From a virus: a DNA stretch of 64,000 nt. Of the stretch, positions 33,916 through 47,382 are shown piece by piece. The stretch is taken from positions 1 to 64,000 of the IMG/VR virus record IMGVR_UViG_3300050029_000197. One strand, written 5' to 3'. The position numbers and the translations under genes are program-made. The notes under the pieces were generated by a model. The model searched no databases, was not told the DNA's origin, and was given only the letters and a program-made list of their open reading frames with translations. How positions within the stretch are numbered: the stretch's first letter is position 1; every line of letters starts with the position of its first letter.

Positions 33916-34899
33916 CTATTGCACGAGCCCGGAGAAGAAGACGCCGAGGTCGGGGGCGACGACGCGCATGTCGTACGCGGTGCGGGCCTCGAACACGTCG
34001 GAGTGCTCCTGCTCCTCACGGAACCGTTCCACCGCCGCGGGCGATGATGCGCCCTCGCCGAGGAGGCCGGTCCATGCGAACACGTACCCGGCGGACGGCA
34101 CTTCGAGCCCGGGCTCTGGCGCGGCGTACACGAGCAGCGCGTTCTTCGGGCCGACGATGAAGTCCGACGTGTACGCCTGGCCCTCTTCGGATGTCGTGTT
34201 GATCGCGGTCGCGACCCGGACCGAGTCGACCGCGAAGTATTCGGCGGCCTTGCCGAGGTCCATCGACAGGGCACCCTGGGTGTATTTCACGCGGTCGATG
34301 AAGTCCGGGTGCTGGATCAGGGCCTGCTCGACGTCCGAACCGAGGATGAGGCAGTTCGCGCCGTATCCGGTGAGCTTCGTCATCCCGCGCGACCGGCTGC
34401 GGATCGTCTTCGACGGCAACGACGTCCCGAGGTTCCAGAACACGTCGTGCGTCGCGTCGGTCAACGTCGCGTGGCCGGCGATGTCGGTCGTCCAGACGCC
34501 GGTCTTCATGAACGAGGACACGAACCGCTTGTCCCGGTGGATCATGTGCTGACCCATGATGAGCCGGATCTTGGCGCGTTCGCCGTCGTAGCCGGGCGAC
34601 CAGTTCGCCCGTTCCGAGTCGTCGATCGCCGCGGACAGGCCCTCTTCGGTGCACGCGTAGCTGGCGGTCGTGAGGTCGTGACCGGTGCGCGGCGAACGGC
34701 CTCGCAGCGGGCGGGGGCCGACGTCGTCGCGGTAGAACGCGTCGCGCGGGTACACCCAGTAGATGTCGGTCTTGTGATTGACCGGCACCGTCGGGAACGC
34801 GCCCGGTGCGACGAACGCCGAGTCCTGTTGCATGTACGCAACAGAGATGGTCGTCAGCAGCGCATCGATGTGGCCCTGGTTGGCTGTCGGCTGGGGCAT
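33916..34899 (-). CDS. Major capsid protein
   Basis: 327 residues starting MPQPTANQGHIDALLTTIS with GGAGG 8 nt upstream. AFPTVPVNHKTDIYWVYPRD, RAKIRLIMGQHMIHRDKRFV, GYGANCLILGSDVEQALIQH and the closing RTAYDMRVVAPDLGVFFSGL follow the phage HK97-fold capsid family common in actinophages. It lies downstream of the scaffold and decoration genes. Confidence 0.9.
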   Translation of the reverse strand: MPQPTANQGHIDALLTTISVAYMQQDSAFVAPGAFPTVPVNHKTDIYWVYPRDAFYRDDVGPRPLRGRSPRTGHDLTTASYACTEEGLSAAIDDSERANWSPGYDGERAKIRLIMGQHMIHRDKRFVSSFMKTGVWTTDIAGHATLTDATHDVFWNLGTSLPSKTIRSRSRGMTKLTGYGANCLILGSDVEQALIQHPDFIDRVKYTQGALSMDLGKAAEYFAVDSVRVATAINTTSEEGQAYTSDFIVGPKNALLVYAAPEPGLEVPSAGYVFAWTGLLGEGASSPAAVERFREEQEHSDVFEARTAYDMRVVAPDLGVFFSGLVQ

Positions 34900-34943: not shown

Positions 34944-35315
34944 TCAGACGATGCCGCGGTACTGGAGCAGAACTGGGATGACCGAACCTGCGTTCGCGCA
35001 TCCCTTTTCGCAGATCCCGACGATTGCGTGGCCGGTCGTCGCGGCGGTGATCGCGTGGCCGGATCCGTCGATCTGCACTTCGGCGCCGGTCGCGACCGCC
35101 GCACCGGCGATGACCTTCGCGGTGTCGCGGATCTGCACGGTGCCGACCGCACCCGAGCGCGGGTCGTCGATCATGACGCCGATGGCCTTGCCGCCGGCGG
35201 CCGTGTGCAGGGAGATCGTGCCGTCGGACGCGAGGTCCATGAAGCACATGATGTTCGCGTGCTGGTCGCCGTTCGTGGGGTAGGCCCGCGTAGGGCCGTC
35301 CTGCCAGAAACTCAT
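34944..35315 (-). CDS. Capsid decoration protein
   Basis: The ATG at 35315 (MSFWQDGPTRAYPTNGDQHA) overlaps the scaffold stop. 123 residues, beta-rich, with GGKAIGVMIDDPRSGAVGTV, QIRDTAKVIAGAAVATGAEV and GHAIVGICEKGCANAGSVIP, like DUF2190-type decoration proteins. Immediately precedes the capsid gene in transcription order. Confidence 0.8.
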   Translation of the reverse strand: MSFWQDGPTRAYPTNGDQHANIMCFMDLASDGTISLHTAAGGKAIGVMIDDPRSGAVGTVQIRDTAKVIAGAAVATGAEVQIDGSGHAITAATTGHAIVGICEKGCANAGSVIPVLLQYRGIV

Positions 35316-36103
35316 CGGCCGTTCTCCTTGTCGTACTCGGCCTTGAGGGCCGGATTGGCCTGGATCGCCTTGTCGACCGCGACCTCGGGTGTGATCGTCG
35401 GGTCCGCGGCACGGATGTCGTCGGCGGCCTTTTGGATCTGCGCCCACGCGCCGCCGACGGCGATGTCACCGGAGCCGTGGACCTTGAACGCGTCGGACTT
35501 CACTGCGACCGCCTCCGCGGAACGGAGCACCCGCTCGAGCTCGGCGAACTGCTCCGGCTCGAGCGCGTCCCACGCGGCGCGCAGCACCGGCGCGAACGCC
35601 TTCGGGGTGACACCGATGTTGGTGAAGTCGGACTTGACGACGTCGACCCACTCGCCGTCGATGCGCCGCGACTCTTCGGCCTTCGCGACCCGCTCGGCCT
35701 CTTCGGCCCGCTTGCCCGTCTCCTCCGCCGTCTTCTGCACGGCGGCGAAGTGGGCGCGCAGTTCGGGATCGAGGGTCTCCATCGCCTTCGCGACCGCCTC
35801 TGGAGTGCCCGGCGCGGGCGCGCTGCCCGCGGCCTTCTCGGCGCGGAGCGTCTCGAGCTCGGCGGTCAAGGTGACGAGGTCGGCCTCGGCCTTCTCGGCG
35901 CGCTGTTCCGCGGTGGGCGTGTCGGTCGCGGTCGTCACGATTGCCTCCTCGACGGGGGTGCCGTCTGCCTTTTGTATGGCCCAGCCGTCGACTCCGTCGG
36001 CGCCGAGCTGCTCACGATTCGCGGCGCGACGCACGCCCGCAACGCCGGTCTGCCGAAGCGCAGACATGCGCCGGGGGGCCGCCTTGGTGGTCGTCGCCGT
36101 CAT
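35312..36103 (-). CDS. Scaffolding protein
   Basis: 263 residues. A central coiled coil (AEQRAEKAEADLVTLTAELE and KTAEETGKRAEEAERVAKAE) is flanked by Ala-rich regions and a C-terminal helical domain (FAELERVLRSAEAVAVKSDA). The ATG is 14 nt past the GTGTGG of a family B palindrome with no ribosome site, so it is probably read from a leaderless mRNA. Position between protease and decoration genes fits. Confidence 0.8.
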   Translation of the reverse strand: MTATTTKAAPRRMSALRQTGVAGVRRAANREQLGADGVDGWAIQKADGTPVEEAIVTTATDTPTAEQRAEKAEADLVTLTAELETLRAEKAAGSAPAPGTPEAVAKAMETLDPELRAHFAAVQKTAEETGKRAEEAERVAKAEESRRIDGEWVDVVKSDFTNIGVTPKAFAPVLRAAWDALEPEQFAELERVLRSAEAVAVKSDAFKVHGSGDIAVGGAWAQIQKAADDIRAADPTITPEVAVDKAIQANPALKAEYDKENGR

Positions 36104-36164: not shown

Positions 36165-37697
36165 TCAGGCTGGGGGAGTGGCGTCGTCGTAGAGCGTGAA
36201 CCCTTCGAGCGACAGGCCCTGGATCTCCTTGCGGAGCACCTTCTCCCAACCGAAGTCGTTCCACACGACGCCCATCCACACCGTCCCGGCCGGCACCTCG
36301 ACTGATTTGCGGACACCGTCGACGGTCGCGAGCTCGCATGTGACCGGGTACGGCCAGGTGACGAGGTCGACCCATTCGCCGGCGTCGGTGCCGGGGAAGT
36401 GCTGGAGGTTGACGGTCCGATCCCCGCAACGGACGTAGTCCCACTGCGCCTCTTGGAGCGAGTCCTCGGTGATCCATTCCTTGTGCGTGTCGAGCCGGCC
36501 GGGCACGTACATGGGTGCGAACGTGTATCGCTTCGCCGCGTCCGATTTGCCGACCGCCATCTGCACATACGACGGGCCAAGGTCCTGGTCGTCCATTGGT
36601 TCGGCCCACCCGCCGATGAGTGGGAAGTGTGCGACGACCCCGCCGACCGCGACACAGAACGAGTCGACGATCCACTCGGCCGACTCGGGCAACGGCAACG
36701 CTTGCAGCGCGGTCGGGTCGGTCGCGGTCGCGAGCGTCACGTGCGGGACGAACCCGTGCGTGAAGTCGTCGACGGGCAACCCTTGCGCGTTGAGCTGCTC
36801 GATCAGATCGGCACGCAGGTCGGACAGGTCGATCGAGTCGATGAGCGCGACCGCCGTGTACCAGGGGCCGTCACTGTCCGCATCACCGTCGTCTTCACCT
36901 TGGGCGAGGGGCGCGTCGTTGTCGTCATCGTCGTCGTCGGTGTCGGGGATGAAGATGCCGACACCGGACACCTCCGCACCGAACGGTGAGATCGAACATG
37001 CTGCGCGCATCGCCGACGCGACAAGCGTCAACGCTTGCGACACCCGGCCCGCGGGGATCCGCACGTACGCGAGGGTGACGTGCATGTCCTCCGCGGCCTG
37101 GCAGAGCACACCATCGCTGTCGGGAAGTTCGAGCGCCATCGCGATGTCGGATGGGAGGCCGAACCCGATCATGCACGGCACGACCTCGTCGTCAGGAATG
37201 GAACCGACTGCGTCCATGAACTGGGAGCGCGCATCCGCCGGGGACAGGTCCGCCTTCTGCACGCCGACGAGCTTCTCCGCGACGTCGGCGTACAGGCGGG
37301 TCGCCTTCGCGATGTCGTACGCGACGAGCACCCCATGCGACACCGCGCGCGGTTCGGCCTTCGCGAGCGGCGCCGGCAACCGCCGGTCCGGGTACAGGGC
37401 CCGGTACGCCTTCGCGATCCTGGGCGACGCCTCCGCGCGCGCGACGTCGTCCATGCGGGCCAGTGCACCCATCGCCGCGTGGAGCCGACCCTGAGAAATG
37501 ACGCCGTCGGCGGTCTTCCACAGCGGATGCCGCCACGTGGACCGGTCGGCCCGATCGCCGATGAGGGCGAACGCGTCGGCGGGCAGGTCCGCGGCCTTGG
37601 CCGTCTGCGACGGGATCTTCGCCTTCGGCTTCTTCTTGCCCGTACCGCCCGAGAGGAGCTCGTCGACGTGACCTTCGTTCGCGGTGGGGTCGGGCAT
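36165..37697 (-). CDS. Capsid maturation protease (XkdF-like) fused to 2H phosphoesterase domain
   Basis: 510 residues from ATG 37697 (MPDPTANEGHVDELL). Residues 40-110 form a helical domain of unknown type. Residues ~118-365 contain two H-x-T motifs (HVTLAYV at 206 and HVTLATA at 319) separated by an acidic Asp-rich loop, the signature of 2H phosphoesterases/2'-5' RNA ligases. Residues 388-510 (KRYTFAPMYVPGR, THKEWITEDSLQEAQWDYV, PAGTVWMGVVWNDFGWEKV) match XkdF-type phage proteases. It stands between MuF and scaffold, the standard protease position. The 2H domain could act on cyclic nucleotides, but this is untested. Confidence 0.85.
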   Translation of the reverse strand: MPDPTANEGHVDELLSGGTGKKKPKAKIPSQTAKAADLPADAFALIGDRADRSTWRHPLWKTADGVISQGRLHAAMGALARMDDVARAEASPRIAKAYRALYPDRRLPAPLAKAEPRAVSHGVLVAYDIAKATRLYADVAEKLVGVQKADLSPADARSQFMDAVGSIPDDEVVPCMIGFGLPSDIAMALELPDSDGVLCQAAEDMHVTLAYVRIPAGRVSQALTLVASAMRAACSISPFGAEVSGVGIFIPDTDDDDDDNDAPLAQGEDDGDADSDGPWYTAVALIDSIDLSDLRADLIEQLNAQGLPVDDFTHGFVPHVTLATATDPTALQALPLPESAEWIVDSFCVAVGGVVAHFPLIGGWAEPMDDQDLGPSYVQMAVGKSDAAKRYTFAPMYVPGRLDTHKEWITEDSLQEAQWDYVRCGDRTVNLQHFPGTDAGEWVDLVTWPYPVTCELATVDGVRKSVEVPAGTVWMGVVWNDFGWEKVLRKEIQGLSLEGFTLYDDATPPA

Positions 37698-37738
37698 GAG
37701 GTGGACTGTACGCCGCCACGGTCGTTTCGGCTGGGTTG

Positions 37739-37757
37739 GGTATAGGGAGACTGTTTT
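37739..37757 (-). promoter_or_regulatory. Degenerate family A operator
   Basis: TCTCC-CTATACC is intact but the TATAGT half is replaced by AAACAGT. It lies between the protease gene and the inserted GIY-YIG gene, which may have damaged it. Confidence 0.45.
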
Positions 37758-37788
37758 CAGTGTCTCACCGGACTGCGATGCTGAGGTC

Positions 37789-38241
37789 GTGAGCACCGAC
37801 GGACCCGACCTTCCAGTCATTGAGATATGCGTCGTCTATCGAGCCTTCGCCGCGGACCGTGAGCTCCTCTACGTGGGCGTCACATCACAGTTCATGCAAC
37901 GTATGCACAAGCATCGCGCGCGCAGTCCTTGGTGGCGGCTGGCGAGCAGCGTTACCGCCGAAGTGTTTATGACCCGGGCGGAGGGAGTCGCGGCGGAGGC
38001 ACGAGCTATCGCGGACGAACGTCCTCGGTTCAACCTGGAAGCCGCACAGCGGCGAAGCGCAGCGGGTCTGATCGCCGGCCGCAAACGAAATATCCTGCTG
38101 CGTACGCATTGTCGGAGGGGTCACTCATACGACGAGGCGAACACGATGATACGGAAGAGCAAGGGAAGGACCTATCGTGTGTGCAGAAGTTGTGCGCGTG
38201 AACTCGGCCGGCTGAGATACGCCCGGCTCACTCTTCGGTAG
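37789..38241 (+). CDS. GIY-YIG endonuclease with C-terminal zinc finger (plus strand)
   Basis: The start is GTG at 37789 (VSTDGPDLPVIEICVVYR). Residues ~12-90 carry the GIY-YIG core: VVYRAFAADRELLYVGVT, RMHKHRARSPWW and the RAEGVAAEARAIADERPRFN end. Residues ~105-140 form a C-x2-GH...C-x2-C finger (HCRRGHSYDEANT, YRVCRSCARE) as in phage homing-type nucleases. It is reversed relative to the surrounding operon, overlaps the 3' end of the MuF gene by 14 nt and uses more A/T-ending codons. Probably a mobile gene. Confidence 0.88.
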   Translation: MSTDGPDLPVIEICVVYRAFAADRELLYVGVTSQFMQRMHKHRARSPWWRLASSVTAEVFMTRAEGVAAEARAIADERPRFNLEAAQRRSAAGLIAGRKRNILLRTHCRRGHSYDEANTMIRKSKGRTYRVCRSCARELGRLRYARLTLR

Positions 38242-39085
38242 TCGTGCCGAAGCTCGACAGGATGGTCGTGCACCGGCAGTTCGGGTGGTCTGGCGGCCCG
38301 TCGTCTCCGTTCGAGAACGTGTCGCCGAGCGTGATCTCTTCGCCGTTGAGCCCGTCGCACTCGTCGCAGGCGCCGTCCGCGGCCACCCATTGCACCTTGG
38401 CGTCGGTGCCGACGGCGCCCTGCGCGGCCGCGAACGCGTACCCGTCGAGCCGGCCTTGATTCGAGGCCCACATGGTTTCGTAGCGGGCGATCGACTCGCC
38501 GCGTTGGGCGAGCATCCGGTCCCGGTACTGCACCGACATCGCCCGGATCCGCGGCGACTCCACACCCTGCTTCACGAGCTGCTTCTCGAACCGGTCGAGC
38601 GCGAGCCCCTGACCGTCGGTGAGCCCAATGACGTTCTGCAGCCTGCGTGAGATGTCGGGGATCGGGGACCCGTTCTGGAGGCCTTTGGCGATGACGTCGC
38701 GCACCGCGGCGCGGGTGCGGCGGTCGATGCCGGTGATGTGTTCACCGACGCCGGCTTCGGCGCGCGCGGACGCTTTTGCCATGGTGCCGCCGAAGTGGGC
38801 GATGAGGTCTTGGCTGATCGAGACGATCGCGTCGTACGCGGCGTTGGCGGCTTGGGCGCCGAGGCGGGTGGTCATCGTGTCGAGTGCTGCGGTCCAGCCG
38901 GCCCAGTCGAGTTCTTCCATGATGCCGTCGACGTCTTGGGCGGAGATGCGGGCGAGGACCCGCTGGCCGCCCGCGGACTGTTGCAGGCGGGCGACGGCGT
39001 CGCGGAACGCCTGGCGGACCATCGTCTCGGTGAAGTTGAGGGGCGCGGCCTTCGCAACCTGAGACGGCCTGGCGCTACTTGACAT
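38228..39085 (-). CDS. MuF-like head morphogenesis protein
   Basis: ATG at 39085 (MSSSARPSQVAKAAPLNFT), 7 nt after GATAGT, so possibly leaderless. The C-terminal part has the MuF signature: RYETMWASNQGRLDGYAFAA, then CDECDGLNGEEITLGDTF and PPDHPNCRCTTILSSF, with Cys/His residues at the typical spacing. The helical N-terminus contacts portal and scaffold in relatives. 285 residues. Confidence 0.9.
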   Translation of the reverse strand: MSSSARPSQVAKAAPLNFTETMVRQAFRDAVARLQQSAGGQRVLARISAQDVDGIMEELDWAGWTAALDTMTTRLGAQAANAAYDAIVSISQDLIAHFGGTMAKASARAEAGVGEHITGIDRRTRAAVRDVIAKGLQNGSPIPDISRRLQNVIGLTDGQGLALDRFEKQLVKQGVESPRIRAMSVQYRDRMLAQRGESIARYETMWASNQGRLDGYAFAAAQGAVGTDAKVQWVAADGACDECDGLNGEEITLGDTFSNGDDGPPDHPNCRCTTILSSFGTTTEE

Positions 39086-39138
39086 AATGGGGACTATCGG
39101 CGGGCTGGGGGAGTGTCGAGCGTGAACCGGGGCGCGCA

Positions 39139-40026
39139 CTACAGACCGACCGCCTGGATGACGTCCTCCGCGGCCGCGACGATCCCCTCCTCGGCATCGC
39201 GCACGATGCGGGCCACCTCGGCGCGGAACCGGTCGAGCGGACTCGGCCCGGGCGTCGGTGACGGAGCGGGCTGCGGTGCGGGCGCGGGTGGCGTCACCGG
39301 TCCAGGCGCGGGTGTCGGCGTCACCGTCGCGTGCGGGAGCGCCTGCAAGTCCGCGAGCAGCGCCGCGAACGCGACGTCGCCCATGTCGTCCTTCGTGACG
39401 ATCGCCCACGCCTCTTCGACGCACGCCTGTTCCCATGTCCAGTCCGCCTCCTGGAGCGCGCCCCACGTGACGACGGTGCCGTACCCGTTCGCGCCCGTGG
39501 GCTGCTGTTGGCCCACCTTGAGAATCGCGTGCCCCTCGGCCGGGTCCGGCTGCTCGCCGTTCGCGACCGTCCACGGTTGTCCGGCGTTGAACAGCGCGTT
39601 GGCGTCGTCGGTCAGGTTCACGCCGAGGATCACCCCGCGGCCCAACTGGCCCATCACCGCGTCGACGGTGCCGAGCTCGACCGGGGCGAACCCTTCGATC
39701 TCCCCGTTGTGGAACAGGTACAGCAGGAAGTCGGCGAGGTTCACGCCGACGTCCTGGCCGTGGTCGTACGTCTGGTACAAGCCAACCGTCTCCGCGGTCG
39801 TCGGGGTCGCGCCCGCGAGCATCCGGTCATGCTCGTACGCGGCGACGCCGCAGTCGCCGAAAACATCGTTGCCGAGCATGCCGAAATCGGTGATGCCCTT
39901 CGAGACGTCGATCGGATATGCGGGCACAGGAGCCGCGGCGTACTCGTGCAGCCAGCGGATCGCGTACCGCTCCCCGACCGGCTTGATCGGGAGCCGTCCG
40001 CGGAGTCCTGCGATGCGTTCGGTCAT
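39139..40026 (-). CDS. Papain-like cysteine peptidase-type protein
   Basis: 295 residues. FGMLGNDVFGDCGVAAYEHD carries the nucleophile Cys in a GDC box, and DPAEGHAILKVGQQ the likely catalytic His, with WEQACVEEAWAIVTKDD downstream. The same GNDxxGDC box occurs in a family of bacterial and phage C1-like proteins. A Pro-rich linker and an amphipathic helix (FRAEVARIVRDAEEGIVAAA) end the protein. Located between portal and MuF, so it may act on virion proteins or be ejected. Confidence 0.7.
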   Translation of the reverse strand: MTERIAGLRGRLPIKPVGERYAIRWLHEYAAAPVPAYPIDVSKGITDFGMLGNDVFGDCGVAAYEHDRMLAGATPTTAETVGLYQTYDHGQDVGVNLADFLLYLFHNGEIEGFAPVELGTVDAVMGQLGRGVILGVNLTDDANALFNAGQPWTVANGEQPDPAEGHAILKVGQQQPTGANGYGTVVTWGALQEADWTWEQACVEEAWAIVTKDDMGDVAFAALLADLQALPHATVTPTPAPGPVTPPAPAPQPAPSPTPGPSPLDRFRAEVARIVRDAEEGIVAAAEDVIQAVGL

Positions 40027-41546
40027 GGTGCTCCTCCGGTCGTGACGTTCTGCGCGTTCGCGTCGTCGGGCGCGTTCGGATCCTGGCCGCCCTGGTTCAT
40101 CTTCCCGAGCTCGGCGAGCTGCGCGTTGACCCGGTTCGTTACCTCGGTCTCGACGAGCAGGTCCTGCGCGCCTTTCTCCTCCGCGCTCATGTGCGGCGCG
40201 TCGAGCTGATCGAGCAGCCAGTCCGACAGTTGCGGATCAGGGAACACGTCAACGCCCGCCTGCGACAGCTTCACGATCGCGTCGAACAGCTTCGTGATGT
40301 CAACCTCTTGCACCGTGTCATGCTCGAGCGTCGGTGTCAGCTCGACCGGCCAGCCGTTCAACTCGACCAGTTCGCGGTAGCCGTTGTCGGTGACTTCGGT
40401 GCCGACCATCGTGAGGTTCGCGTCGAGCGACGCGGAGAACAGTTCGACGCGGGTGGTGCCCATCGAGAAGCCGAGCGAGCCGACACCTTGCGCGCCGAGG
40501 AGGAGGAAGTCGGCGAGACCGTTCAACAAGATTCGATGATCGAGCCGTTCAATCACCTTCGTCGTGTCGAACTGGCGTTGGCCGCCGGTGGTGAGGAGCT
40601 CGAACTTGAAACGGTTGTTGCCTTTCTCGTTCTCGTCGTACGGCAACATCATCCCGTCCGCCTCGTTACGACGGACGTTCTTCACCGCCTCCCGCAACGT
40701 GTTCGCGAGCGCCTTGTAACTCTCGGCGGCGTCAGGCGCGAGGTATTCGGGGGGGAGCCACATGACCGGCAGACCGACGAGGTCGCGTTCAATGCCGACC
40801 GCTTCGATGTCCTCAATACGCCGTTTCTGCAGCCATGGCCTCCACGCGCCCCGCAACATGGAACGGCCAAGCGGGTTGTCTTTGAGTGCGCTGGTTCGGA
40901 AGTGGAGCAGTTTCGCCATTGGGATCGACACCGCGGCGTGGGTGAGCGTCCGCTGATTCGCTCCGACGAGCCGTTCGTTCGACGCGGTGCGCTGGTAGTC
41001 CCACCGCCAGATGGTGTCCTGCGCGCGGATCGGGAGGTTCTCCCACCCGATCTTGCCGTCGTCGTACTTGCTCTTCGGCTGCCCGAACGGTTGCGCGTCG
41101 GTCGGCGGGCCGCCCTTGGGACCGAGGCGCCGCTTGTAGACCTTCTCGAACAGTCCGAAGCCGAACTGGCGGGTGGTGCCGATCGACGACTGCGTGTCAG
41201 GCCACGTGTCGAGCATGTCGCCGCGGCATGAGTCACAGTGGTCGGCGATCTCAGCCGCGAGGCGCGAGTCGTCCGCCGGCGTCGTCCGCCATGACACTTG
41301 CCGTTCGAGAAGCTCGATCGCCAACAGCATCGCCGAGGTGGTCGCGTCGTTGTCGCCCATCTCGCGGAACACGCGCCCGGCGAGCGGCCACGAAAGCTGC
41401 TGGAGGAACTCTTCTTGGATGAACCCGCCGAACTGGCGGAGACCGGTCGAACCGATCTCGATGCCGATCGAGCCGGGGTCGGTGAGGATGTCGTCGAGTT
41501 GCACGCGCAGCGGGGAGGCTGCACCGTTGCTGTTGACGACGGTCAC
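40023..41546 (-). CDS. Portal protein
   Basis: 507 residues starting GTG 41546 (VTVVNSNGAASPLRVQLDD). LSWPLAGRVFREMGDNDATT, SAMLLAIELLERQVSWRTTP, PIRAQDTIWRWDYQRTASNE and AGVDVFPDPQLSDWLLDQLD match DUF935-type portals. No ribosome site; the start follows a family B palindrome. First gene of the head module. Confidence 0.9.
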   Translation of the reverse strand: MTVVNSNGAASPLRVQLDDILTDPGSIGIEIGSTGLRQFGGFIQEEFLQQLSWPLAGRVFREMGDNDATTSAMLLAIELLERQVSWRTTPADDSRLAAEIADHCDSCRGDMLDTWPDTQSSIGTTRQFGFGLFEKVYKRRLGPKGGPPTDAQPFGQPKSKYDDGKIGWENLPIRAQDTIWRWDYQRTASNERLVGANQRTLTHAAVSIPMAKLLHFRTSALKDNPLGRSMLRGAWRPWLQKRRIEDIEAVGIERDLVGLPVMWLPPEYLAPDAAESYKALANTLREAVKNVRRNEADGMMLPYDENEKGNNRFKFELLTTGGQRQFDTTKVIERLDHRILLNGLADFLLLGAQGVGSLGFSMGTTRVELFSASLDANLTMVGTEVTDNGYRELVELNGWPVELTPTLEHDTVQEVDITKLFDAIVKLSQAGVDVFPDPQLSDWLLDQLDAPHMSAEEKGAQDLLVETEVTNRVNAQLAELGKMNQGGQDPNAPDDANAQNVTTGGAP

Positions 41547-43054: not shown

Positions 43055-43828
43055 TCAGTAGTTCTTCGGGTGGAACATGACCCGGCAGTAGTTCATGCGC
43101 GTGTTCAGCGAGGCCGACGCGTTGCTGTGGGTCGCGGTGATGTTGAAGTTCCGGGCTGCGTTGGTCGCGAGCGCCGCGTTGGTACCGAGGTCGAAGCCGT
43201 CTCGGACCTGGAAGCTGCCCGCCACTGAGGCCGCGTAGCCGGACCCTCGGGTGACGAGGCCGGTGACGGCGTTGAAGCCGAAATCCTCGTCGTCGATCGT
43301 GATTTGTCCGACGCTGGTCGTGCCGAGCACGGTGACGGTCGCGGTGAGCTTGATACGCCACACGCGCACGTTGGTCGTCGTCGCGGTCGACGTGAGGGCC
43401 GCAGAGATGGCGCTGTGGATTGGGTAGGTGCCGTGGTACACCTGGATCTGCGACGTGTACGTGTTCGTGCCGCTTGAGTTCTGGAAGTAGCCACCCGCTT
43501 CGAGGACATAGCGGTCGAGGATTGCCTGCGCAGCGGGGAACCCGCCCGCGATTGCTGCGCCCGTCGAGAGCAGTGACGTTTCGGTGACGGTGCCGCCGAC
43601 GTTCGCGCCGAGGTCGACGACCGACGCGTAGCCGGGCGGATAACGGTATTTCTGATCGGTGCCGTCCGATCCGAGGAACAGTCCGGCCGCTCCGAGAGGC
43701 TGACGAACCGGCAGGCCGGTGGAATCGCGGTAAACACCGTCGCCGCGCGCAGTGAGGAGCGCGGAGTTGCCGTATTCGCCCGGTGCCGCTTTGCCTGCCG
43801 TGTTGCCGATGAGGATGAGCTGGCCCAT
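43055..43828 (-). CDS. Structural/fibre-associated protein
   Basis: The ATG at 43828 overlaps the fibre stop (TAATG). 257 residues, MGQLILIGNTAGKAAPGEYG, beta-rich and Thr/Ala-rich (TSTATTTNVRVWRIKLTATV). No catalytic motif. Likely a fibre tip or chaperone-like partner of the large fibre. Confidence 0.7.
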   Translation of the reverse strand: MGQLILIGNTAGKAAPGEYGNSALLTARGDGVYRDSTGLPVRQPLGAAGLFLGSDGTDQKYRYPPGYASVVDLGANVGGTVTETSLLSTGAAIAGGFPAAQAILDRYVLEAGGYFQNSSGTNTYTSQIQVYHGTYPIHSAISAALTSTATTTNVRVWRIKLTATVTVLGTTSVGQITIDDEDFGFNAVTGLVTRGSGYAASVAGSFQVRDGFDLGTNAALATNAARNFNITATHSNASASLNTRMNYCRVMFHPKNY

Positions 43829-46800
43829 TAGGTGAACTCCAACAGGCGGGTGAAGCGCGAGGCCATGTCGGCGTAGCCGACGCCGCCTTCGTGGTAGCCG
43901 GACGTGTCGAGCGTGTCCATGAGTCCGTCGGCGTTCGCGGCGGCGAAGCCGACGTTGCCTTCCGCCGACCACGCCTTGTAGATGTCGAGCGTCGCGACCC
44001 GGTTCGTGGTTGCCCAATCGTCCAGAGCTTGCCGGTAGGTCGCCTGGAACGCCGCTGTGGATGAGACCGGATTGAGGGTGCCGAGACGGATCGTGCCTTG
44101 CTCGAACGGCACGATGAGCAACTGATCGGCGAACGGGTTGACTGCCGCGTAGAAAGTGTCGAGGCAATGTTTGATGCCCTGGTTCACGACCGCATCGGCG
44201 GTGCAGATCGTGACCGCGAGCCCGGTTTCGTTCGCGGTCGCGTTCGCTGACATAGCCGCATGCGTCGTATCGGTGTAGGTGCTGATCGTCGTACCCGGCA
44301 TGATGCCGGCGCTGATCGCGATGAGCGCGCCCGCGTCGAGCGTCTCGAGGGTGCCTGTCGCCATCGTGAGTGTCGGGCTACCGATAGCGAGGGTCGCGGT
44401 GCCGAGCGTGTACGCGCCGTTGATCGCGGCTTCGAGGCCCATGTCGTTCGTCCAGCAGCCGTGGACGATGAGGTCGGGCATGAGCGACATCGGCGAGCCG
44501 TGCAGGGTGCGGAACGGGTCGCCGTAGCCCCCCTGGACAGTTACGGGGTTGTTGGCTGCGCCTGCGGTGACGGTGCCTGTCGCGTTGTTCGAGAGCGTGC
44601 AGGATGTCCCGGCCTGGGCGGTGATGCAGGTGTTGGCGGGGATGTTCGCTCCGACGATGAGCTTCCCGACATCGTCAGATGTGAACGCTCCGCGCGCAGC
44701 GTTGAGGGTCGCGTTTGCATTCGTTGTCCCGGCGTCAGCGATCGTGCGGGCGTTGAGGAAGTTGTGGAGGAACTGCTGCGCGTATCCGAAGTTGTGGACC
44801 TTCACGCCGGCGGTCGTGCCGTAGACGTTCGGCATGTTCCACACGTCGATACCGGGCGTCGAGCACGTCGACGCGGTACCGGATGCGGAGGCCATGCGGA
44901 TCTTGAACGTCGCCGGGTCGGTGATCGTGATGGACGTCTTGCGCATCTCGGGCCGGGCTTGCACGGTGTCACCAGTGACCGTCGTGAGCGCGTTGTACGC
45001 AGCGGGGCCGACGTACTGCACGTTCGTCAGCGTCGAGCCGGAGATGCCGTCGTAGGTGAACTGGGCGACGCACTTGAATGTGCCCGCGCTGCCGACGTTG
45101 ACGATCACGAACCCCGAGTTGGGTAGGCCGGTGACGGAGGCGAGCGTCATGGTCTTGGTGCCGTCGAAGTAGTCGCATCGGCGGTTGTTGTCGGCGGAGT
45201 TGAGGGTCGTCGCCGCGGTCGGGAACGAGCGCGCGACCGGGTTGTCGATCCAGGTCGAGCCGCCGTCGGTGGAGTACGACCAGCCCTGTCCGGCTGTGCC
45301 TCCGAAGGCGGAGCATTCGACCCACCACACGTCGATCTGGCCGACGAGGCAATCGGCGGGTCGCGTCCAGGTGAGGTTCGATCCCGTGCCGGACCCGAAG
45401 TAGACGATCCACGGTCCGAGGAAGTAGACGGAGTGGTCGAGGTTCCCGACGGTGAGGCCGGCGGTGTCCCACTCGTAGACCTTGCTGCCGGTGCGGGGGC
45501 CGCGGTAGATGCCGCGGAAGCCCCAGCCGAGTGAGCCGCCGAAGCGTTCGTTGAAGATGCGGCGGGTGCGGCGTACCCAGCCGTCCCATTGGCTGCCCGC
45601 GATGCCGGTGTTGACGCCTTCGCAGGTGGAGTCGCCGATGCACGTGACGTTGCGGACGCGGTCGTAGATGATCGGGTCGCCCGCGGTGTGTGATGCGGCG
45701 GTGGTGCCGTTAACGCCGCGGATGACGGTGAGGTTCGCGGTGCGTTGACCGCGGATTACCTGCATTTGCTCGATCACTCCGCCGGAGGAGATGCCGATGA
45801 CCTCGTAGCAGCCGACACGCGTCGCGCGGACGTTGTCGACGGTGATCGTCGTGACGGTGCTGTTGATGTTGCTGGTGAGGTTCGTGCCGATCCGGTTCGG
45901 CGCGCCACGGAACCGGTCGAGCGACCGGCGAGGGATGTCGATCGAACCGAGCAGCACATTCAACGAGGCGGGGATACCGAGATCGGCGGCGAGTTGCGCC
46001 ATCGTGCGGTTTGTCCACGCGCCCGTCTTGCGTTGGATGATGTCGTCGTTCGATGGGGTGAGTGCGGCGATGGTGGTGAGGTCGGCGTCGTGTGCTTCGA
46101 CGTCTGTGCCGATAGCGAGCCCGAGGTTCGTGCGCGCGGTCGCCTCGTTCGCGAGGTCCGAGAGGTTCGATGCTTTCTGCGCCGCTCCCGCGATCCGCGA
46201 GTCGTCACCAGCAGCGACGGTCCCGGCCGTTGTGCCGACGTTGAGGACGGCCGCGCCGCCTAGTCCCGCGGAGGAGCGCAGGGCCGCAGCATCGGCAAGG
46301 ATGAGGAGCCCGCGCCCAAACGCTGTCGTCGCGAGCGCGGCGATAGCCGTGAGGTCGCTGTCGAGCGGCTGACTGGCCGCCTGTGCCGCGGCTGCTGCTC
46401 CGGAAGCATCAAATGCCGTCGTGTTCGATGTCGCCGCGGTCCCGAGCGCGAGCGCGGTCCGGGCCGCTGCTGCGTCCGCGAGCCCGAGAAACGCACGGCC
46501 GTAGGCCGTGGTGGTGAGTGCTGCAATGGCGGTCAGGTCCGAATCGAGCGGCTGCGACGCAGCCTGAGCCGCAGCGGCCGCGCCGGACGAGTCGAAATCG
46601 GTGCTCGCGTGCGTGGCCGCGGTCCCGAGCCCGGCGAGGGTGCGGACCGCGGCCGCGTCCGCCTGGGTGAGTACCGACCGGCCGAACGCGGTGGTGGTGA
46701 GCGCAGCGATCGCGGTGAGATCCGAATCGACGGGTTGCGAGGCTGCGATGGCTGCGGCTTGTGCGCTCGCGGCTGCCCCGGCAGCATCGAAGTCGCCCGT

Positions 46801-47382
46801 GTTGTTCTGGGCTGCGGTGCCGAGTACGGCGGCGGATCGGAGGGCTGCGGCGTCGGCGAGAGTGAGGAGCCCGCGACCGAAGGCCGTGGTGGTCAGGGCT
46901 GCGATTGCGGTGAGGTCCGAGTCCAGCGGTTGGGAGACTGCGACTGCTGCGGCGAACGCTGACGCTGCGGCACCGGCTGCGTCGAAGTCGCCTGCTGCGT
47001 GCGTCGATGCCGTACCGAGCCCGAGCGCGACAATGGCCGCGGTAGCGAACGATTCGGCGTTGGATTGTGCGGTCGCCGCTGCGCCGGCCACGTCGGCGCC
47101 GACGTCACCGGGCCCGAGTACGACGTCCGGGCCCGCGTCTCCGTTGACGGTCTGCACTCCGCCGGGCGGCGCAGCCTCCAGCCCTACGATGCGCGCGTCG
47201 TGCGAACCCGGGTCGGTGGATCCAGGGATGCCGACGACGGTCTCCAGGGCGATGATCGCGGAGTCGCGGATCCCGTCACCGCGCGAGTGGGGGACGGTCG
47301 CGAGTGTGCCCGACGCCAGGGTCGCGGCGTCAGGCAGGGTGGTGGTGTCGTCGAGGGAGTCCGGGTAGTTCGAGTCGCCCAT
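43828..47382 (-). CDS. Large tail fibre with tandem repeats and SGNH hydrolase domain
   Basis: 1184 residues. Residues ~100-400 hold about six copies of a ~42-residue repeat around SQPLDSDLTAIAALTTTAFG, a known phage fibre shaft repeat. Near 580 begins an SGNH domain: VTCIGDSTCEGVNTG (block I Ser), VHGCWTNDMG near 975 (block III G-x-N-D-like) and SGYHEGGVGYADMASRF near 1160 (His block). Such domains remove acyl groups from host surface glycans. The large size and repeats suggest the main receptor-binding fibre. Confidence 0.85.
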   Translation of the reverse strand: MGDSNYPDSLDDTTTLPDAATLASGTLATVPHSRGDGIRDSAIIALETVVGIPGSTDPGSHDARIVGLEAAPPGGVQTVNGDAGPDVVLGPGDVGADVAGAAATAQSNAESFATAAIVALGLGTASTHAAGDFDAAGAAASAFAAAVAVSQPLDSDLTAIAALTTTAFGRGLLTLADAAALRSAAVLGTAAQNNTGDFDAAGAAASAQAAAIAASQPVDSDLTAIAALTTTAFGRSVLTQADAAAVRTLAGLGTAATHASTDFDSSGAAAAAQAASQPLDSDLTAIAALTTTAYGRAFLGLADAAAARTALALGTAATSNTTAFDASGAAAAAQAASQPLDSDLTAIAALATTAFGRGLLILADAAALRSSAGLGGAAVLNVGTTAGTVAAGDDSRIAGAAQKASNLSDLANEATARTNLGLAIGTDVEAHDADLTTIAALTPSNDDIIQRKTGAWTNRTMAQLAADLGIPASLNVLLGSIDIPRRSLDRFRGAPNRIGTNLTSNINSTVTTITVDNVRATRVGCYEVIGISSGGVIEQMQVIRGQRTANLTVIRGVNGTTAASHTAGDPIIYDRVRNVTCIGDSTCEGVNTGIAGSQWDGWVRRTRRIFNERFGGSLGWGFRGIYRGPRTGSKVYEWDTAGLTVGNLDHSVYFLGPWIVYFGSGTGSNLTWTRPADCLVGQIDVWWVECSAFGGTAGQGWSYSTDGGSTWIDNPVARSFPTAATTLNSADNNRRCDYFDGTKTMTLASVTGLPNSGFVIVNVGSAGTFKCVAQFTYDGISGSTLTNVQYVGPAAYNALTTVTGDTVQARPEMRKTSITITDPATFKIRMASASGTASTCSTPGIDVWNMPNVYGTTAGVKVHNFGYAQQFLHNFLNARTIADAGTTNANATLNAARGAFTSDDVGKLIVGANIPANTCITAQAGTSCTLSNNATGTVTAGAANNPVTVQGGYGDPFRTLHGSPMSLMPDLIVHGCWTNDMGLEAAINGAYTLGTATLAIGSPTLTMATGTLETLDAGALIAISAGIMPGTTISTYTDTTHAAMSANATANETGLAVTICTADAVVNQGIKHCLDTFYAAVNPFADQLLIVPFEQGTIRLGTLNPVSSTAAFQATYRQALDDWATTNRVATLDIYKAWSAEGNVGFAAANADGLMDTLDTSGYHEGGVGYADMASRFTRLLEFT
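46260..47010. repeat. Tandem coding repeats of the fibre shaft
   Basis: Diverged DNA repeats of about 130 bp underlie the SQPLDSDLTAIAALTTTAFG protein repeat. Their copy number could change by recombination, altering fibre length. Confidence 0.75.

Follow-up and report, generated by a model that had tools for sequence, protein, structure and literature searches.

A capsid maturation protease gene of a virus carries a putative LigT/ThpR-type 2H phosphoesterase domain, a divergent example of a recurrent 2H–head-protein architecture

In the head operon of a virus we find a gene whose product is, on the strength of its domain matches, almost certainly a procapsid maturation protease with a LigT/ThpR-type 2H phosphoesterase domain on its N-terminal side. 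The gene lies in a window of 64,000 nucleotides taken from IMG/VR record IMGVR_UViG_3300050029_000197 (65530 bases), and it represents a diverged form of an architecture, recurrent and poorly named, in which 2H domains are joined to head proteins. The reading that best explains the observations as a whole, to which we assign a probability of roughly 0.45, is that a LigT/ThpR-type 2H enzyme would be carried on the protease, loaded into the head and injected into the next host.

A 2H domain and an XkdF-type protease in one head gene

The initial annotation had read this gene as an XkdF-like capsid protease fused to a 2H phosphoesterase domain. Both domains exceeded their curated Pfam cut-offs within a single open reading frame, the 2H domain as 2_5_RNA_ligase2 (PF13563, E = 6.6e-9) and LigT_PEase (E = 4.3e-5), the protease as Peptidase_S78_2/XkdF (PF14550, E = 8.2e-9; 36 bits against a cut-off of 24), and the fusion and the protease assignment both held. 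The gene starts at the ATG at 37697, and a further-upstream ATG at 37820 would extend the product to 551 aa. It is read from the minus strand, where GC content per codon position (0.69/0.47/0.87) supports coding; the plus-strand frame across the same interval is broken by stops. A PDB search with the whole fusion protein gave no meaningful match.

The fusion occupies the slot between the portal and MuF genes on one side and the scaffold, cement and major capsid protein (MCP) genes on the other, all on one strand, and thus sits in the maturation-protease slot of the head operon (Table 1). By eye, the true start of the MuF-like protein is probably nearer 39130. Between the MuF and protease genes, the plus strand encodes a GIY-YIG-like endonuclease with an HNH-type C-terminal part (37684-38241, PHROG), and between portal and MuF the minus strand encodes a 295-aa phrog_19005 protein (39139-40026) that by eye recalls a cysteine-peptidase-like start. 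Elsewhere in the window, a 1184-aa putative tail/fibre protein (43828-47382, minus strand) shows, again by eye, repeated LDSDLTAIAALTTTAFGR-type segments.

Table 1 Features of the fusion gene and its neighbours, with window coordinates
Feature	Coordinates	Strand	Basis or remark
Portal protein (Mu-type), upstream head gene	40023..41546	-	Pfam, PHROG
MuF-like head morphogenesis protein	38228..39574	-	ORF as listed; Pfam, PHROG
2H phosphoesterase–XkdF-type protease fusion gene	36165..37697	-	510 aa; ORF and Pfam
First 16 codons, MPDPTANEGHVDELLS, resembling the virus's own major capsid protein start (MPQPTANQGHIDALLT)	37650..37697	-	Pairwise comparison
N-terminal region, partly helical, residues 17-165	37203..37649	-	Low AlphaFold2 pLDDT
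2H phosphoesterase domain, residues 170-362	36612..37190	-	Pfam, profile, AlphaFold2, fold match
First HxT motif (HVT, residues 206-208)	37074..37082	-	Alignments
Asp-rich insertion, residues ~252-277	36867..36944	-	Alignments; window-specific
Second HxT motif (HVT, residues 319-321)	36735..36743	-	Alignments
XkdF/Peptidase_S78_2 protease domain, residues 382-500	36198..36554	-	Pfam, alignments
Scaffold-like protein directly downstream of the fusion	35312..36103	-	Role assigned from position
Head cement/decoration protein	34944..35447	-	Pfam Phage_cement_2, 1.4e-6
Major capsid protein	33916..34899	-	phrog_1005, 6e-63

Conservation of the 2H and protease domains

Two HxT motifs, reported beforehand at residues 206 and 319, were found at exactly these positions, and the protein contains no third HxT. 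Shuffling the protein 20000 times produced pairs of HxT[LIVFM] motifs 60-130 residues apart in 27 cases, a result that, together with motif conservation in relatives, ruled out a chance pair. H206, T208, H319 and T321 were invariant in an alignment of the window protein with six actinophage relatives. We then considered 13 aligned 2H-protease fusions. This set grew from the window protein, and whole-protein or protease matches, not the 2H motif, recruited the remaining 12, so that invariance of HxT was not imposed by a motif search. Both motifs were invariant in all 13; only six of 147 gapless 2H columns were invariant (H, T, F, P, H, T), four of them the H and T of the two motifs, in a domain whose identity to that of the window has fallen to 20-28%. 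The first HxT was likewise invariant in 69/69 proteins of a set gathered by a 2H-only search, whose pattern lacked this motif and included the second HxT. The invariance in the 13 fusions suggests that catalysis is probably retained, such conservation fits an enzyme rather than a remnant, and we consider it very likely that the domain is an active enzyme.

In the protease domain, D403, H405, H433 and S496 were invariant across the seven-sequence alignment, which holds the window protein and its six fusion relatives, and H433 and S496 also align with the corresponding residues of five relatives without 2H; we infer that these four residues are catalytic. Structure prediction, proposed earlier as a check, was run with AlphaFold2 and modelled the 2H domain well, with pLDDT of about 90 across most of residues 170-360 and lower values between 250 and 280; in the protease, residues 380-490 mostly scored 80-93. 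When the 2H domain was modelled by itself from a single sequence, pLDDT reached only 41, and that poor model was left unused.

The 2H domain resembles RNA 2′,3′-cyclic phosphodiesterases

In a profile search against PDB sequences, the best match was the RNA 2′,3′-cyclic phosphodiesterase (CPDase) 5h7e (DrCPDase, 9.5e-12), other LigT-like proteins coming next, with coronavirus NS2a at 9.6e-8 and the best Acb1 chain at 0.021. Fold comparison with the AlphaFold2 model also matched 5h7e (Z 18.9, rmsd 3.2, 169 aligned residues), along with LigT (Z ~16), MHV ns2 (14.1), rotavirus VP3 (4ye2, 13.4) and AKAP18, and Acb1-type chains reached Z values of at most 11.5-11.6 (Acb1 7t26, 11.5). The profile alignment places both HxT motifs on those of DrCPDase, and the folds align too. 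LigT/ThpR CPDases (5h7e, 1iuh, 5ldm) are therefore the closest known proteins by profile and fold, but they are free-standing, whereas the 2H domain of the window is fused to a protease. The only NCBIfam match, TIGR02258, scored 19.5 bits, below the equivalog cut-off of 65.7; the domain is predicted to work like a LigT/ThpR CPDase and is not classed as a TIGR02258 member.

This CPDase-like profile and fold predict, as the likely chemistry, cleavage of 2′,3′-cyclic phosphates or of 2′-5′/3′-5′ oligonucleotides. We give about even odds to a substrate that is an RNA end or a 2′-5′ oligonucleotide and not a CBASS cyclic dinucleotide. The C-terminal 2′,5′-phosphodiesterase domain of rotavirus VP3, which shares the 2H fold, is named an RNase L antagonist in structure titles. 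VP3 is a virion enzyme whose terminal 2H domain removes the 2′-5′ oligoadenylate alarm signal; the virus and the partner enzyme are unrelated to those of the window, making this an analogy of design and not of kinship.

Distribution of the fusion and optional presence of the 2H domain

A tblastn search of 50,697 phage records matched the fusion in 15, representing 11 distinct phages by name, namely ten Arthrobacter phages and Microbacterium phage ValentiniPuff. Both domains were kept, at about 30% identity over window residues 175-501 (204-499 in ValentiniPuff). These proteins, among them Laroyevirus gp18, Kovu gp20, Ottawa gp87, ValentiniPuff gp7 and PHROG 14859 ('RNA ligase'), share with the window a 2H domain followed by an XkdF-type protease, a place in the head operon and two intact HxT motifs, but are without its 165-aa N-terminal region, its capsid-like 16 residues and its Asp-rich insertion. 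The six actinophage regions examined run from portal through MuF or protease to the fusion, with MCP downstream in five; in ValentiniPuff it lies ~20 kb away. The order portal, MuF, fusion, scaffold, cement, MCP is common to the window and the Arthrobacter phages; in the latter, some members of the series are annotated as hypothetical.

Annotations of the actinophage fusions vary among RNA ligase, aldolase, capsid maturation protease and hypothetical protein, and the link of those filed as RNA ligase or aldolase to head assembly is therefore easily missed. In describing cluster AL, Klyczek et al. 2017 (PMC5513430) list Laroye gp18 as an aldolase and gp17 as the protease; domain matches suggest that gp18 is instead a protease-2H fusion.

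Searches of viral contigs with either the whole protein or the MCP as query returned no close relatives of the window, and a search of genome_contigs returned one relative, a 2H-protease in a Chloroflexota MAG (L088). By eye, that protein has a MuF-like end.

We observed that the 2H domain is optional on this type of protease. In five of five proteobacterial phages examined from the same MCP family (Pseudomonas RSP, Erythrobacter R6L, Roseobacter RDJL1, Enterobacter Mulvp2 and Rhizobium Y60), the slot before scaffold holds an XkdF-like protease of 127-245 aa without 2H; the RDJL1 and Y60 proteins scored above the Pfam cut-off, and those of RSP, R6L and Mulvp2 matched below it. The Y60 slot protein has a weak ParB-like match where 2H would be. 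A protease tree of 81 rows required 2H to be gained or lost five times or more, and well-supported branches force three of these changes; this tree has few columns, long branches meet in it, and the window pairs with L088. In the 2H tree, whose partner labels were assigned partly by sequence cluster and not by a Pfam hit per row, the window forms a long, unplaced branch that does not join the 13-row actinophage 2H-XkdF clade, and a topology uniting the window with the actinophage fusions as one clade was not rejected (p-AU 0.218).

XkdF-type proteases of other viral contigs carry different cargo. Within a scan that took in 20 loci, four showed a zeta-toxin-like kinase domain C-terminal of the protease and five an XkdF-type protease with a tudor-like domain. 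As in the window, this protease family acts there as the carrier of an extra domain; the cargo differs, and the zeta-like domain sits C-terminal of the protease. One further contig (L039, 4953-6527), considered as a partial 2H match and set aside when no 2H was found there, encodes an XkdF protease whose C-terminal part looks RelA/SpoT-like by eye, without a Pfam hit, and the reading frame upstream of it looks zeta-toxin-like by eye.

2H domains on other internal head proteins

We asked which partners this 2H domain has elsewhere by means of the 2H-only search of viral contigs, taking the best 80 of 92 relatives. These ORFs had a median length of 690 aa, 70/80 being at least 400 aa, and all 80 carried two HxT motifs; five complete ORFs were of 260 aa or less. 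The Pfam tally covered 69 of these 80 (11 were omitted as near-duplicates by impression or as too long, and families can co-occur) and comprised Phage_portal in 19, Mu-like_Pro in 8, Peptidase_S78_2 in 7, Phage_capsid in 3, MuF in 3, Phage_capsid_4 in 2 and NUDIX in 2, with others in single cases. Proteins with 2H towards the C-terminus (n = 25) included 19 with Phage_portal, two with SPP1_portal, one with Phage_portal_3 and two with MuF, and in two capsid fusions scanned singly the 2H domain lies N-terminal of the capsid domain. Five loci formed a tight 2H clade with 100/100 support, one of which (L143) has a NUDIX match.

Among named phages, 279 records match this 2H domain, 192 from Mycobacterium and 52 from Gordonia phages. 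Carriers of the domain among Arthrobacter, Gordonia and Mycobacterium phages can be propagated on laboratory strains. The Gordonia phages Dexdert and Paries have it inside an 871-945 aa 'head maturation protease' encoded between MuF and MCP. Mycobacterium phage I3 and Gordonia phage ChisanaKitsune encode it in a separate gene of ~300 aa near the portal gene, and these genes, with the five short ORFs, indicate that fusion is not obligatory. In ChisanaKitsune, the separate 2H gene adjoins both the portal gene and a gene annotated as a VIP2-like ADP-ribosyltransferase, and the two may possibly form a cluster of injected effectors.

Judged by these domain matches, internal head proteins repeatedly serve as carriers of the 2H domain. 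Portal, MuF, protease and capsid proteins sit inside the procapsid or line it, and this is the best argument that the 2H domain is loaded into heads. Since the same 2H clade is found also on portal, Mu-type protease, MuF and MCP, packaging or delivery of the domain is plausible from context.

Part of this pattern had been anticipated. In the text of Iyer et al. 2017 (PMC5512222) available in part, 2H on MuF or portal is already predicted to act as RNase or destroyer of nucleotide signals, and assemblin-like peptidases are separately stated to occur at C-termini of polyvalent proteins. The window gene likewise attaches a 2H enzyme to an internal head protein; the partners named in that text are MuF and portal, whereas here the partner is an XkdF protease. 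With an effector domain fused to a head component in a late operon, it has the make-up of a polyvalent protein. Our literature search did not find the 2H-XkdF fusion, which is undescribed in the available portions of Iyer et al. 2017 and of a jumbo-phage survey. One paper (P318) reports a virion-associated phosphoesterase (ORF9 in its table) encoded in the replication cluster, away from the head genes.

Proposed role and alternative explanations

In the reading we prefer, the 2H enzyme would enter the procapsid interior on the protease as the head assembles, a location that we hold to be probable, and in other phages the equivalent carriers would be portal, MuF, capsid proteins or other proteases. 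Some of the enzyme would then remain in the head, whole or released by a protease cut, and enter the next host with the DNA; presence in the mature virion followed by injection is a tentative step, on balance slightly short of an even chance. Maturation proteases often self-digest and exit the capsid, and the 2H domain may therefore not persist in the head. In the new host, the enzyme would open 2′,3′-cyclic phosphate ends or 2′-5′/3′-5′ linked, possibly cyclic, oligonucleotides, with the outcome that tRNA or RNA damage is reversed or a defence signal removed. If the enzyme does enter with the DNA, these actinophages would counter a defence based on nucleotide signals or RNA cleavage ahead of their own gene expression, and the head protease, besides its processing role, would double as a carrier. 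Genomic context makes such delivery plausible; a literature search at the level of listings turned up no virion proteomics of these phages, and no enzyme assay was found either.

Alternatively, the domain might process RNA ends late in the producing cell, for instance on tRNAs cut by an anticodon nuclease of the host, with no injection at all and with the fusion to protease serving expression level or proteolytic removal. This would suit the RNA CPDases that are its nearest solved relatives, and a head protease is produced late and in large amounts. We nevertheless regard it as unlikely: the recurrent portal, protease, capsid and MuF partners are hard to explain without encapsidation, and, according to Iyer et al. 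2017 (PMC5512222), 2H versions of this kind have not been observed together with RNA ligases.

Less probable still is a reading built on the link to Acb1 that the initial annotation raised as speculation, namely an Acb1-like anti-CBASS nuclease on the protease that degrades cyclic di- and trinucleotide alarm signals. Acb1 (T4 57B) is an anti-CBASS nuclease (Hobbs et al. 2022, PMC9117128) that shares with the window protein the 2H superfamily and fold, two HxT motifs and a phage origin. Alignment by hhalign with six T4-type Acb1 proteins gave a probability of 91.7 with both HxT motifs aligned, and 8 of 69 proteins of the wider 2H clade matched the Acb1 Pfam model (PF23474) at E ≤ 0.001 (best 1.2e-5). 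The distant kinship with T4 Acb1 shown by the hhalign comparison is real, and it is expected within the 2H superfamily. The window protein itself, however, had no match to PF23474 at E ≤ 1, three of its relatives matched weakly below the cut-off (E 0.088-0.18), CPDases are clearly nearer by both profile and fold, and the six aligned T4-type Acb1 proteins are free-standing, ~150 aa long and encoded beside 57A or another short gene. We did not adopt Acb1 membership, and Acb1-type activity is one possibility for this domain, not the leading one. The earlier interpretation was partly supported: the 2H domain on a capsid-type protease, the conserved motifs and the head-gene slot held, and the specific link to Acb1 found no support.

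We also weighed a binding role, in which the 2H domain would contribute to procapsid assembly structurally or by regulation, its catalysis being irrelevant. AKAP-type 2H proteins mainly bind, AKAP18 is among the fold matches, and the position of 2H next to the protease is fixed; yet few residues of this otherwise drifting domain are as well conserved as the H and T of the HxT motifs, and the same-slot protease occurs without 2H in other phages, which makes this explanation quite improbable. A chance motif or mis-joined ORF, conceivable in a high-GC window with many antisense ORFs and a very diverged 2H domain, has next to no probability, being already contradicted by two domains over curated cut-offs in one ORF, an architecture common to 11 named phages, a confident AlphaFold2 fold and the shuffle data.

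The capsid-like start and other window-specific segments

The first 16 codons of the fusion resemble those of the virus's own MCP gene (34852-34899), with 34/48 nucleotides identical (third positions 7/16) and a BLOSUM62 score of 60, where composition shuffles averaged -14 (s.d. 8). The capsid protein of ValentiniPuff begins similarly to these 16 residues, and the capsid protein therefore looks like the source of the shared start. The segment is possibly an assembly tag or the trace of an old recombination. A capsid-like start on a 2H-protease was seen in this phage only, and a capsid-protein profile scores the 16 residues weakly, and we accordingly treat it as a lead.

A bolder version of our preferred reading, which we consider a long shot, would make the procapsid interior a loading dock. 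One 2H clade would have been attached repeatedly to whichever head proteins were available (the portal C-terminus, Mu-, XkdF- and other proteases, MuF, and the N-terminal side of capsid proteins), with the capsid-like start as assembly tag; the protease could free the cargo before DNA packaging, and injection would erase an RNA-damage mark or nucleotide alarm at the very onset of infection.

Two further parts of the protein proved peculiar to the window. An Asp-rich loop between the HxT motifs, as had been claimed, is present; it occurs in none of the other 12 fusions aligned and is poorly modelled (pLDDT <50 at 260-267), and we dropped it as a functional part since it was confined to the window in the 13-fusion alignment. 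The claimed N-terminal helical domain fared likewise: the region is partly helical, but its model is of low confidence and it is missing from the six aligned actinophage relatives. A search for this region in phages gave no match, and one weak relative of it was seen in another XkdF protein (L032).
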